This document shows, one piece after another, positions 55,486 to 59,716 of a stretch of DNA of 64,000 nt. The position numbers and the translations under genes were made by a program. The DNA comes from Thiosulfativibrio zosterae. GTDB taxonomy: Bacteria > Pseudomonadota > Gammaproteobacteria > Thiomicrospirales > Thiomicrospiraceae. The notes under the pieces are model-generated. The model had not been told where the DNA came from. It ran no database searches and saw only the letters and a list, made by a program, of their open reading frames with translations. Position 1 is the first letter of the stretch, and each line of letters begins with the position of its first letter. The stretch spans positions 1,161,501-1,225,500 of the forward strand of contig NZ_AP021888.1 of NCBI RefSeq assembly GCF_011398155.1, written 5' to 3'.

Positions 55486-56706
55486 TTAGAGCGCAGACAG
55501 CGTTTGATTGGCCCAGCCGCTGGCTTTCATGTAGCTGGATGAAATCTCCATAATATTCATGCCTTCGTGACCCATCATAATAAATTGGGTATTTCCTTGT
55601 TCTAAGGCTCGAACAATAAATAGCGCTTTACCCATAGAGCCTTTTTGCTGGGTGAGTGCAATTTTGATTTCGTCAGTGATGGGCAGTTTGTCAACAATAT
55701 CAACCATGGGCACTTTTAAAAAGGCGTTAAGGGTTGAAAACAGTCCGACCATAAAAAAGCGTTCGGAATCTACTTGATGACCCGTGTGCACAGCCACGGC
55801 TTCTAAAAATTTGGCGCGAATCAGTGCAGTTGCTAGGAGTTCTTTGGGTACGTCATCCACTTGCGACATCATAATCATATTCACCCAAAACTTAAGGCGC
55901 TTAAGCCCCATAAAACTCACGGCTTCTTTAAGGTTATCAATGAAATGTGGTAAGTCATTGCTGGGATGATTGATGGCAGACAGGAGTTTGTGGCTGAGTA
56001 CCGCATCGGTTTTAATCAGGTTCACAACTTCTTCAAAAGTAATATCAGGGTTGTTGAGCGATGCTAAGAGTTTAACAAGGGCTAAGCGACTGCCTTCAAG
56101 TGGCTTGGCTTGTATGGCAATGACCGGCTCGGTAAAAAAATGGCCTTCAAATTGAGTAAAGCCAGCGGCAAGCAATTTTTCGCGCAGCTCTTCATTATCG
56201 ACATGGGTCAAAATAACATCCGTATTGTTGGGCAGAGCTTGCGTGAGTACTTTGATGTGGTCTAACGAATGTGCTTGGCTAGAAATCTTAACGGTATGAG
56301 CAATACTGAGTAATTTCTTATCTTTTTCAGACCCTTGATAATCTTGTATAGACAAACGAATGCCTTGGCCGAGGATTTCTTTGAGGTTGGTCAGATAGGT
56401 TTTATTTTCAATGACGCTGGAATGCACTTCAATCCATAAATTGTCATGAGAAAAGTTAGGCAGACTGCTCACTTTTAGGGTTTCAGTGGGCGCAGAGTAA
56501 AAGGTTCTGAGTCCTTTAGTTAGGTTGTCAAAACCACCTGACTTTTCGACTTCAATATTTAATTCTGCAATCGCGTCTTGCCATTGCGCTTCATCCAGCG
56601 TTTTTTGCCCAACCACATCTAAGGACAAGTGAAACCCTAGCAAGGTATTTTGGGTGCTTAAAATCGGTTGTTTGTTAAATAAAACTGGCAATGAAGAATG
56701 TGACAT
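55486..56706 (-). CDS. EAL-like/HDOD signalling protein (YuxH-type)
   Basis: 406 aa. The N-terminal half resembles a degenerate EAL domain (FNKQPILSTQNTLLGFHL at the start, FTQFEGHFFTEP at its end) without the catalytic E-A-L and metal residues, so it should not hydrolyse cyclic di-GMP. The C-terminal HDOD domain (from about 205) includes LLSAINHPSND and EAVSFMGLKRLKFWVNM. This YuxH-like layout is usually a regulatory scaffold. It is the last gene of a four-gene minus-strand operon. Confidence 0.85.
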   Translation of the reverse strand: MSHSSLPVLFNKQPILSTQNTLLGFHLSLDVVGQKTLDEAQWQDAIAELNIEVEKSGGFDNLTKGLRTFYSAPTETLKVSSLPNFSHDNLWIEVHSSVIENKTYLTNLKEILGQGIRLSIQDYQGSEKDKKLLSIAHTVKISSQAHSLDHIKVLTQALPNNTDVILTHVDNEELREKLLAAGFTQFEGHFFTEPVIAIQAKPLEGSRLALVKLLASLNNPDITFEEVVNLIKTDAVLSHKLLSAINHPSNDLPHFIDNLKEAVSFMGLKRLKFWVNMIMMSQVDDVPKELLATALIRAKFLEAVAVHTGHQVDSERFFMVGLFSTLNAFLKVPMVDIVDKLPITDEIKIALTQQKGSMGKALFIVRALEQGNTQFIMMGHEGMNIMEISSSYMKASGWANQTLSAL

Positions 56707-56721
56707 AAGGTTTCCAGAAGC

Positions 56722-57261
56722 TTAGCGTAAAGGGAGTGTGCGAGACATTTCACCCACATGATACGATAAATTGTTAACAGTTTGGTTAAGTTGATGAAAT
56801 TGACCATTCATGACTTGCATGTCTTGGTTAACACCCGTCATCGAGGTATTGATGGTTTCAAGGCTTGCATTCACGCCTTGCGTTGAGGTTGTCATGGTTT
56901 GCATATTCGACACAAATTTACCCAACTCTTCATTCATCACCGGAACTAACTGGGTTTTTTCACGCATGCTGAGCATGCTTTGATAGAGATCTGCCATTTG
57001 CGAAGACATACTGGCAATGTGCTCATGCATCCCCTCGATTTCAGTGACTAGGGTTTTTGCTTCTTGCGTCCATTCGTAGACAAAATAAAAGTTAATCAGC
57101 GCAAACAATAAGATAAATACAAAAAATATCGTCAGAATATTGTCTGTTTTGGCTTGAGAAGCGCCCATTTTATGTTGATTTTTTTGTGCATCCTGCTCAA
57201 TTTGATCAAGCACTTCACCAAGGTTTTTGAGCCATTTTTGGCTAGAGAGTTCGTTCATCAA
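56722..57261 (-). CDS. Membrane-anchored coiled-coil protein B
   Basis: 179 aa. A cytoplasmic N-terminus of about 42 residues, one transmembrane helix (43-66, ILTIFFVFILLFALINFYFV), then about 110 residues of predicted periplasmic coiled coil rich in Met, Gln, Asn and Thr. The layout is the same as in the next gene upstream although the sequences differ. No family recognised. It lies 15 bp upstream of the EAL-HDOD gene. Confidence 0.78.
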   Translation of the reverse strand: MMNELSSQKWLKNLGEVLDQIEQDAQKNQHKMGASQAKTDNILTIFFVFILLFALINFYFVYEWTQEAKTLVTEIEGMHEHIASMSSQMADLYQSMLSMREKTQLVPVMNEELGKFVSNMQTMTTSTQGVNASLETINTSMTGVNQDMQVMNGQFHQLNQTVNNLSYHVGEMSRTLPLR

Positions 57262-57269
57262 AGTATCCT

Positions 57270-57821
57270 TTAGCGGCTGAATGGATTCATCTTGTTAAAA
57301 ATACGCATGGGTTTACTGAGCGTATCCACATCCGAGTTCAGTTTTTGCACATTGCCTTGCATTTGATAAAACTCTTGGTTCATGTTTTGCATGCTGCTTC
57401 GCACCTGCTGGACTTGGCTATCCATCTGGCTCATCCCCAATTGAATACTGAGCATAGATTGATTGAGTTGATCCATTTGTTGTGTCATGGTATTGATTTG
57501 ACTGACCATGGGCGCCAAACTGCTCATGTCTTGGTTCATGCCTTGCAGCGACCCATTCATTCTAAACATGATTTGTGACATTTTATCCATATTTTGGTTC
57601 ATAAAACGCAGGCTATCAACGCCTTTATGCATTTGAGTGGTCATCACATAAGCTGTGCCAGAAAAGGCCACTAGGATCAGTAAAAAACCTATGAGCACCA
57701 TGCGATAAATAAATGAAATACGCTGATTTGCCAATTGATTGGCTTGTTCTTGCATCACCATAATGTGTTGGAATTTAGCCAGTGAGTTTTTGAGTTCAAT
57801 TTGATCTTCGAGCAGATTCAT
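57270..57821 (-). CDS. Membrane-anchored coiled-coil protein A
   Basis: 183 aa. Cytoplasmic N-terminus (1-38), a transmembrane helix (39-61), then a long Met/Gln/Asn-rich coiled coil with repeated MNQ, MSQ and MDQ heptad-like units. The start ATG overlaps the stop of the receptor gene by one base (TAATG), so translation is coupled. Together with protein B it may form a pair of stalks or a hetero-oligomer across the periplasm. Unknown family. Confidence 0.8.
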   Translation of the reverse strand: MNLLEDQIELKNSLAKFQHIMVMQEQANQLANQRISFIYRMVLIGFLLILVAFSGTAYVMTTQMHKGVDSLRFMNQNMDKMSQIMFRMNGSLQGMNQDMSSLAPMVSQINTMTQQMDQLNQSMLSIQLGMSQMDSQVQQVRSSMQNMNQEFYQMQGNVQKLNSDVDTLSKPMRIFNKMNPFSR

Positions 57822-59716
57822 TATGATTCCATGATTTTTAATTGATAAACCATGCCCAACTGATAAGCCACCGCCTCATCATGAGGATGGCTAATCGATA
57901 GAGCGTTAAATTTGGCTTGAGCTTCATCCAATTGATGATCCAATCGCAATTGTAATGCGGTTTCGTAGTCTTCTATAAAACTGGCCAAGCTGATGGAAAG
58001 TGGATCATTTTTCCAAGCAATCAACTCATACAGAGCCACTTCGTTTTGACTGATTTGAGTAAAGACTACATCTAATTTGCGCATTAAAAATTGGTCTTTA
58101 ACTTTAGCATAAGTATGTTCGCAAACAATAATTTGAGTACCATATTGCGCATTATACAAGCTAAGATTTTGCGCTTCATTCACCTCGCCACCCACGGCGG
58201 TATAGACCATGCGATCAATCGAGCCAAAGTTTCCAACCACCGCGTTCCCTTGCATCAAACTGATGTAGGTGTTAATCATGGGATAACCTTCTTCGCTGAG
58301 CGTGGTGTTTAATTTATTGAGATGCTTTTTGGCGTTTAAGGCAGCTTGGCAGGCAAAAAAGACGTCATTCTCCGTGGCGATGGGCGCACCCCAATAAGCA
58401 AAAACCTGGTTGCCTTTAACCTGGTCAACAATGCCTTTTTTCTCATTAATAATGTCATACAAAACCGACTGATAAAGCGACAAAAAATGCACCATTTGTT
58501 TGGGGTTAAAGTCTGCGGTCAGTTGGGTGAATTTTGGGATGACAATATTCAACATAGACAAGCGCTTTAAATCACCATGCACTTCTAAGGCGTTAGCGGT
58601 GTGCTTGAGTTGTTCTATCAGCGGAGTCGGCACATAGCGCTGTATGGCTTCGTAGCGATTTTTTAGCTCTTGCAGTGAACCATCAATTTGCTGGTATTCC
58701 TCTACAAAAGTAAAGATGGGTTTCATTTCGTTGTAGCGTTGTGCGCTTAAGAGTTCGGCATTTTTTTGTACTTGTCTAAGGGGTTTTCCAGCTCGCAATG
58801 ACAAGATAAAAATAATAAAGCTAATCCCGGTTAAAGAAAGGAGGGTTTGCCATAAAGTGCCTTGCAAATTGCGGTTGATGGGCGCTACCAATTCTGCACT
58901 GGAGATACTAATGACCAATTGCCAGTCAGTATTGTGATTGAGTTTTAAAGGGCTGCGAATCAAAATATTATCACCAGTTTGTAGCCGAGTGTTTTCAGTG
59001 AAATCGGGTAGGTTTTCTGGTTTAAACAGGGTGTTGTCTTGTGCGTCCAAAATATAAAAAATAGGTCTATCCATTTTGGCCATGACTTGATCTAGGTTTT
59101 GCGCCATTTGCGCCAGATTTAATTCCGTGCCGACTAACAGGGTTTGGCCGTTGGCAGAAGGCACAGCATACGCCAAATAAAAATTTTGTTCATCTTTATG
59201 CCAAGCAAACGCTTGTTGTTGAACTTGTTTGAATAAATCTTGCCAAACTTGAGGCACTGGCGATTGCACTTGAGTTTCTGCCAGGGGTTTTTGCGCGGGG
59301 TTAACATAGCGCTTTTGCGATAGGCCATCGGTATTGATGTATTCAGTCAGTGCGATGGGAAAAGCCACAGTATGCAAACTGCCTTGATTTTCAGTCACCA
59401 ACCAGGCGGGCAGTTTTTGAACAGAACTCCATTGAGATAATTGAAATCTGAGCCAGTCTTGGTTTTGTGCCATAGACAGCGATTGCAACATCTTAGCCAG
59501 GGTTTGCAGTGCGGTATCTGTTTGGTTAAATTGATTTTCAATGGACTGAGATAAGATTTGAGTTTCTTGCTGCAAAATGGAGGATGTGAGTTGTTCCGCA
59601 GCTGCTTGGGTGCGGTAAAAACCATTGATGGAAAGCACAACCAGTGTCGACATCAACAAAATAATGAAGGGAATGAAGATGGCTTGGTAGAGCTTTACAC
59701 GATAAAAGGGCTTCAT
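57821..59716 (-). CDS. Cyclase-homology receptor with Cache-like sensor (degenerate catalytic site)
   Basis: 631 aa. A transmembrane helix (9-31), a periplasmic domain (32-285) of dCache-like length, a second helix (291-307), a linker, and a class III nucleotide cyclase domain (about 385-565). In that domain the two metal-binding aspartates are replaced: the F-x-D-x-x-x-F-T position is V392 (IVIPKFT) and the GD position is N436 (KGNQVFAYWGAP). The substrate-side motif RMVYTAVGGEVNEAQN is retained. It ends with a TPR-like tail. Likely a non-catalytic signal receiver. Confidence 0.83.
   Translation of the reverse strand: MKPFYRVKLYQAIFIPFIILLMSTLVVLSINGFYRTQAAAEQLTSSILQQETQILSQSIENQFNQTDTALQTLAKMLQSLSMAQNQDWLRFQLSQWSSVQKLPAWLVTENQGSLHTVAFPIALTEYINTDGLSQKRYVNPAQKPLAETQVQSPVPQVWQDLFKQVQQQAFAWHKDEQNFYLAYAVPSANGQTLLVGTELNLAQMAQNLDQVMAKMDRPIFYILDAQDNTLFKPENLPDFTENTRLQTGDNILIRSPLKLNHNTDWQLVISISSAELVAPINRNLQGTLWQTLLSLTGISFIIFILSLRAGKPLRQVQKNAELLSAQRYNEMKPIFTFVEEYQQIDGSLQELKNRYEAIQRYVPTPLIEQLKHTANALEVHGDLKRLSMLNIVIPKFTQLTADFNPKQMVHFLSLYQSVLYDIINEKKGIVDQVKGNQVFAYWGAPIATENDVFFACQAALNAKKHLNKLNTTLSEEGYPMINTYISLMQGNAVVGNFGSIDRMVYTAVGGEVNEAQNLSLYNAQYGTQIIVCEHTYAKVKDQFLMRKLDVVFTQISQNEVALYELIAWKNDPLSISLASFIEDYETALQLRLDHQLDEAQAKFNALSISHPHDEAVAYQLGMVYQLKIMES

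Follow-up and report, generated by a model that had tools for sequence, protein, structure and literature searches.

A conserved gene unit of a dCache receptor with a degenerate cyclase domain and two membrane coiled-coil proteins that may signal by protein contact

Introduction

Can a membrane receptor whose cyclase domain has lost its catalytic residues still pass on a signal, and through which partners might it do so? The question is raised by four genes at positions 55486-59716 of the window, the 64,000-nucleotide stretch of Thiosulfativibrio zosterae DNA that was analyzed as a whole. The initial annotation, made from the sequence alone, had described a four-gene module, comprising a receptor, two small membrane proteins and a degenerate EAL-HDOD protein, and had proposed that it may signal by binding alone. 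Here, the locus was compared with related loci in other genomes, and the proteins were examined by structure prediction, profile searches and alignment.

Results

Layout of the locus

All four open reading frames were found at the locus, and all lie on the minus strand:

57821-59716, minus strand: dCache receptor with a dead class III cyclase domain (631-residue open reading frame, AF2 model, PDB matches)
57270-57821, minus strand: small protein A (183 residues; single transmembrane helix, Met/Gln-rich periplasmic coiled coil, C-terminal motif SKPMRIFNKMNPF)
56722-57258, minus strand: small protein B, a paralogue of A (178 residues; single transmembrane helix, periplasmic coiled coil)
55486-56706, minus strand: degenerate EAL-HDOD protein (406 residues; HDOD match, EAL sites changed)

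The receptor and A frames overlap by 1 base (TAATG), and 15 bases separate B from the EAL-HDOD gene on the same strand. The gap between A and B is 8 bases when counted from a TTG codon at 57261 and 11 bases when counted from the ATG at 57258, one codon downstream, which is most likely the start of B. The tight packing originally described, with a 1-bp overlap and gaps of 8 and 15 bp, was confirmed, the first gap being that counted from the TTG. Promoter and terminator scans gave results near chance level and were set aside.

Folds of the receptor

The receptor polypeptide runs from a first transmembrane helix (TM1) through a periplasmic dCache domain (residues ~36-282), a second transmembrane helix (TM2) and a helical linker to a pseudo-cyclase domain (395-570) and a short helical tail. 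Its AF2 model has a moderate mean pLDDT of 68.8. In this model, residues 41-278 showed the dCache fold when compared with PctA (9koo; Z 16.7, rmsd 3.5 over 204 residues), and residues 395-571 the class III cyclase fold when compared with CyaB (3r5g; Z 18.4, rmsd 2.9 over 165 residues), so that the periplasmic sensor and the cyclase-like domain first proposed were both recovered. The receptor-family profile matched CyaB at 2.5e-33 and PctA at ~1e-12. The Pfam family PF02743 was matched by 15 of 16 aligned receptor members and not by the window receptor sequence alone, in which Guanylate_cyc scored just under the Pfam cut-off. No match to HAMP, GGDEF or EAL was found in the receptor, which does not have the make-up of a LapD-type inside-out receptor. 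Most of the dCache pocket residues kept by the related receptors described below are gone from the window receptor; a Y-D-P-R-x-R-x-W-Y stretch and a late Asp of the dCache domain are kept in the Chromatiaceae members.

The receptor, A and B form a conserved unit

The complete four-gene order was seen in no other genome searched, and the module as initially composed was not supported. A smaller unit was found when named genomes were scanned with a profile of A: the receptor lies directly upstream of A in 21 of 22 relatives of A, in the genera Thiorhodovibrio, Halochromatium, Lamprobacter, Thiohalocapsa, Thiocapsa, Thioalkalivibrio and Ca. Thiobius, the exception being a Magnetococcales genome in which an MCP with a dCache domain stands two genes further along. 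The order and strand of receptor, A and B were kept in 21 of the 22 named loci, with gaps mostly of -14 to +95 bases and often an ATGA-type overlap; L141 and L150, two more genomes of the Chromatiaceae family, showed this order as well. In Ca. Thiobius zoothamnicola (G202), whose locus is the one already covered by the named-genome scan, a sensor without a cyclase domain is followed by A and then by B. Among the best 19 A homologues in the family of this genome, 13 have the receptor beside A, four have a TPR-S cyclase after B (tested with Pfam for one locus and identified by alignment for the other three), in one a degenerate EAL gene comes after B, and one has none of these. The named loci and the loci of this family overlap in genomes and their counts are not additive; the distinct bearers of receptor and A number about two dozen, the window included. 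Those besides the window are mostly sulfur-oxidizing and belong to families other than its own.

Within the window's own family, in which 63 genomes were searched, no full-length receptor match was found in the other 62, and a linked A/B pair was present in only three genomes (G000, G016 and G069). Receptor searches among relatives and within this family gave partial matches to cyclase domains only, and a contig scan of the named genomes with the receptor alone returned no relatives, because single-protein patterns reach only close kin; it was the profile of A that found them. The gene-neighbourhood comparison suggested at the outset supported receptor, A and B across families but not the EAL-HDOD protein, whose orthologues in sister genera have unrelated surroundings. 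The initial annotation had also named the two small genes standing alone in unrelated places as a refutation, and this was half borne out: other subfamilies occur alone or elsewhere, but the window's subfamily is nearly always receptor-linked.

A separate observation concerns the upstream flank in Halochromatium and Lamprobacter, where a putative ATP-dependent zinc protease gene stands ahead of the receptor (L175:3293-3787, L174 and L176-L178; the PF05618 assignment was tested on the L143 copy).

The cyclase domain is dead but constrained

Alignment with reference cyclases showed that, in the window receptor, the first metal-binding Asp is replaced by Val, the substrate Lys by Gln, the second metal-binding Asp by Asn and the Arg by Asn; the set of two metal Asp, substrate Lys and Asn/Arg that marks an active class III cyclase is absent. 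The first metal Asp is lost (to Gly, Ala or Val) in all 19 of the unit's receptors that have a cyclase domain, the window included, and kept in all seven reference cyclases, two of which (L049 and L050) are encoded by the window's genome and keep both metal Asp. The second metal Asp is kept in Thioalkalivibrio, Thiohalocapsa marina and Thiocapsa imhoffii and is Glu or Asn elsewhere; several receptors retain this Asp together with the Lys, and the other catalytic positions are variably lost. A VG-x-x-GS-x-x-R-M-x-Y region is kept in many of them, that of the window included.

In a tree, the cyclase domains of these receptors formed one clade against the seven references (support 98/98). The window's domain was placed nearest to Thioalkalivibrio (support 91/89), its exact position being unsure because it sits on a long branch. 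For the dead domain, dN/dS estimated by the Nei-Gojobori method from five and six genomes was 0.092 (Halochromatium/Lamprobacter) and 0.159 (Thioalkalivibrio), which places it under purifying selection; the sensor half gave 0.205 and 0.195 in the same two sets. The dead domain is thus at least as constrained as the sensor, indicative of its being kept for something other than catalysis. The domain is missing altogether from the receptors of Thiocapsa sp. KS1 and T. roseopersicina (L182 and L183) and of L141, in which the linker still leads into a C-terminal helical tail, and from that of Ca. Thiobius (L191); A and B are retained in every one of these.

A and B are predicted Met-rich periplasmic rods

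A and B each contain one hydrophobic helix, and in almost every homologue Lys/Arg are more numerous on its N-terminal side (the flanking count is 1 versus 1 for the A protein of the window). Since the positive charge lies mostly on the N-terminal side, the C-terminal tails are placed in the periplasm. For A and B at the locus, the tails are 119-130 residues long with 10-15% Met, and their heptad period of 3.46-3.48 was reached by 0 of 500 shuffles. Across the ten sequences examined, five of each protein, tail length is 113-130 residues and the spacing of Met and hydrophobic residues is 3.44-3.48, a value that at most 7 of 500 shuffles attained. AF2 predicted A as a single helix (residues 2-178, mean pLDDT 83), and ~125 helical residues at 0.15 nm each would give a rod ~18 nm long. 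The view of A and B as one membrane helix plus a Met-rich periplasmic coiled coil was upheld by topology, Met content and heptads alike. In Thiorhodovibrio (L173:6562-6837), a gene that by appearance encodes a heavy-metal-associated (copper-chaperone-like) domain lies between A and B, and this insert together with the Met-rich coils may hint at copper.

No Pfam or NCBIfam family was matched above cut-off by A or B. The coiled-coil part of A gave weak matches to DUF948 and DUF1664, below the Pfam curated cut-offs (21.7 versus 37.2 and 23.1 versus 34.6 bits, respectively), and B scored 38.5 bits against an NCBIfam cut-off of 200 for IcmG/DotF of type IVB secretion. By BLASTP, A matched its receptor-linked homologues at E values of ~1e-15 to 1e-21 in a small database. 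A pair profile searched through the class returned tandem A/B pairs in many families, and an A/B-family match was present in 130 of 146 sampled genomes of the Ca. Thiobius zoothamnicola family; A and B belong to a large family without a Pfam model. Pairs of this type also occur without any receptor, which argues for a wider role.

Outside the receptor-linked loci, A/B subfamilies stand alone or lie beside RND/MMPL pumps or STAS/anti-sigma genes. A second tandem-pair subfamily (L153-L163, L171 and L172), with ends like KPARTxNKMFPFP and RPMGxMNPxMP, occurs in many genomes of one family with no constant neighbour, and a third (L164-L169) has either STAS and anti-sigma-type ATPase genes or RND pumps close by. 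In one genus (L135-L138), the gene directly after the pair encodes a TPR-S class III cyclase whose two metal Asp are intact, which may link the pair to active cyclases. In L122:4302-7649, a lone A-type gene comes after one for an MMPL transporter that carries a cyclic-nucleotide-binding domain at its C terminus. In the window's genome itself (L046:2-9139, from 2634000-2645427), a paralogue of A belongs to an operon-like run with genes for an RND pump, a small Gly/Gln-rich secreted protein, a ParA-like ATPase, a transmembrane protein and a dynamin-type GTPase; such runs with an A paralogue recur in other genera of the same family (L044, L045).

The EAL-HDOD protein is a looser partner

The fourth gene product is a member of the HDOD family (PF08668, 47.9 bits versus a cut-off of 22.9, 1.5e-12). 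Its EAL domain scored below the Pfam cut-off and, as for the Guanylate_cyc score of the receptor, this agrees with degeneration. In an alignment with 12 EAL-HDOD relatives, GFHLSL stands in place of YEL (the Glu being replaced), IQDY in place of DDF, and QG has become EG; the EAL Glu and the intact Asp pair of an active phosphodiesterase are lacking. With all four cyclase positions replaced and the EAL Glu, one Asp and QG changed, the enzymatic sites of the locus do appear lost, as originally claimed.

A genome can encode as many as five EAL-HDOD proteins of this family, and in sister genera the closest orthologues (41-53% identity) have unrelated genes as neighbours. G016 carries a further EAL-HDOD gene, also with EG for QG, which is divergent from the A/B pair; common descent of this gene and that of the window as neighbours of the pair was rejected, since they do not group as sisters in the tree. 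In two genomes of other families (G096 and G516), the gene directly after B is a separate EAL gene whose metal-binding positions are altered, and in L190 an HDOD gene is convergent to the receptor-A-B unit. Degenerate c-di-GMP-related proteins repeatedly meet the A/B pair, and the window's EAL-HDOD protein is a looser partner outside the constant unit. It may quite plausibly be an accidental neighbour sharing only the transcript, given the contexts of its orthologues and that, of the receptor-linked loci, only the window's includes an EAL-HDOD gene in its operon. Note, however, that the 15-base gap on the same strand and the recurrent neighbours in G016, G096, G516 and L190 count against chance.

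Discussion

One interpretation of these data, towards which we lean slightly, is that receptor, A and B form a conserved sensory module in which a dead-cyclase dCache receptor works with A/B rods and the readout is by packing rather than cAMP. Ligand binding by the dCache domain would be relayed through TM2 to the helical linker, the dead cyclase domain would serve as a cytosolic dimerization and docking platform, and A and B would stand as ~18 nm periplasmic coiled-coil rods with a conserved C-terminal tip. The output would be a change in packing between the receptor and A/B, with no cAMP made, and in the window's genome the soluble degenerate EAL-HDOD protein would be an added cytosolic adaptor. 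That receptor, A and B touch one another, which way the signal runs and what the EAL-HDOD protein does are inferences. Several observations count against this interpretation: A/B-type pairs exist that have no receptor, the TPR-S cyclase that follows the pair in one genus retains its two metal Asp, some receptors of the unit still have the second Asp and the Lys, and the window receptor sits on a long branch with most pocket residues gone.

Signalling by binding only is the best reading of the sequences at hand. With receptor, A and B a conserved unit and the cyclase site lost across families, the case is far stronger than one sequence could make it, and the original proposal stands in this respect but not in its four-gene composition. 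The sensor, A and B are constant, while the cytosolic part varies between a dead cyclase, nothing, EAL and EAL-HDOD, which points to signalling by contact of membrane helices and coiled coils, to which adaptors have been joined on the cytosolic side.

The chief rival, which we consider unlikely, is that the pseudo-cyclase is a regulatory subunit tuning an active class III cyclase, with A and B holding the complex at the membrane. Class III cyclases work as dimers, candidate partners exist in the window's genome (L049 and L050), the VG-x-x-GS-x-x-R-M-x-Y region survives in many of the receptors, and four genomes have, just after the pair, a gene for a soluble TPR-S cyclase that retains its two metal Asp. 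However, Thiocapsa and Ca. Thiobius lost the whole cyclase domain and still keep sensor, A and B together, so the unit can last without it; this weakens the rival, though less so where the domain has been kept. Slightly less probable is that A and B serve as scaffolds of the envelope in general or as efflux parts, with the receptor and the EAL-HDOD protein carried along as separate genes. Paralogues do have such neighbours, namely RND pumps in L104, L167, L169 and L170, a cNMP-binding MMPL transporter in L122 and an operon with a dynamin-like GTPase in L044-L046, and an RND operon stands just upstream within the window, but the window's A subfamily is receptor-linked in 21 of 22 loci across several families, in overlapping or near-overlapping frames. 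That the operon is a decaying relic, as the lost cyclase and EAL residues and the absence of the receptor from 62 other genomes of its family might suggest, is very improbable and is already contradicted for the receptor-A-B unit by intact frames, a gene order shared between families, the low dN/dS of the relatives (well below 1) and the single clade of dead domains.

The preferred reading, contact between receptor and rods, can be extended more speculatively. A/B pairs might be an undescribed general device, Met-rich rods spanning much of the periplasm that relay signals between membrane and envelope without a second messenger, although we hold this to be doubtful; on the same tentative reading, its inner-membrane inputs would be dead-cyclase dCache receptors, degenerate EAL proteins, RND/MMPL pumps and STAS/anti-sigma switches.

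The initial annotation knew of no such system, no account of one was found in the open-access literature, and the operon of receptor and A/B suggests an undescribed form of signalling by protein contact in which no messenger is made. Since several bearers, purple sulfur bacteria as well as Thioalkalivibrio, are in culture and receptors without the domain occur in nature, messenger-free receptor signalling is directly testable.

LapD and FimX are degenerate c-di-GMP receptors in which dead enzyme domains are kept for binding and signalling, in LapD across the membrane; in contrast, the membrane receptor here is cyclase-like, not GGDEF-EAL, and its operon partners are A and B. CdgJ/YuxH-type EAL-HDOD proteins have the domain order of the fourth gene product, which differs in its changed EAL Glu and QG motif; CdgJ of Vibrio cholerae has been studied as a c-di-GMP protein (PMC4624765). 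PctA-type chemoreceptors share the periplasmic dCache fold, whereas the receptors of this unit are without an MCP signalling domain and the window copy lost most pocket residues. The class III cyclase receptors CyaB, Cya2 and CyaC share the cytosolic fold, but here the first metal Asp is lost everywhere, the domain is dispensable, and the receptor gene adjoins A and mostly B. Dead signalling enzymes have so far come to light singly. In this unit, a receptor clade has a dead class III cyclase as its constant trait, and the clade is linked to a family of paired membrane coiled-coil proteins that is widespread and has no name.
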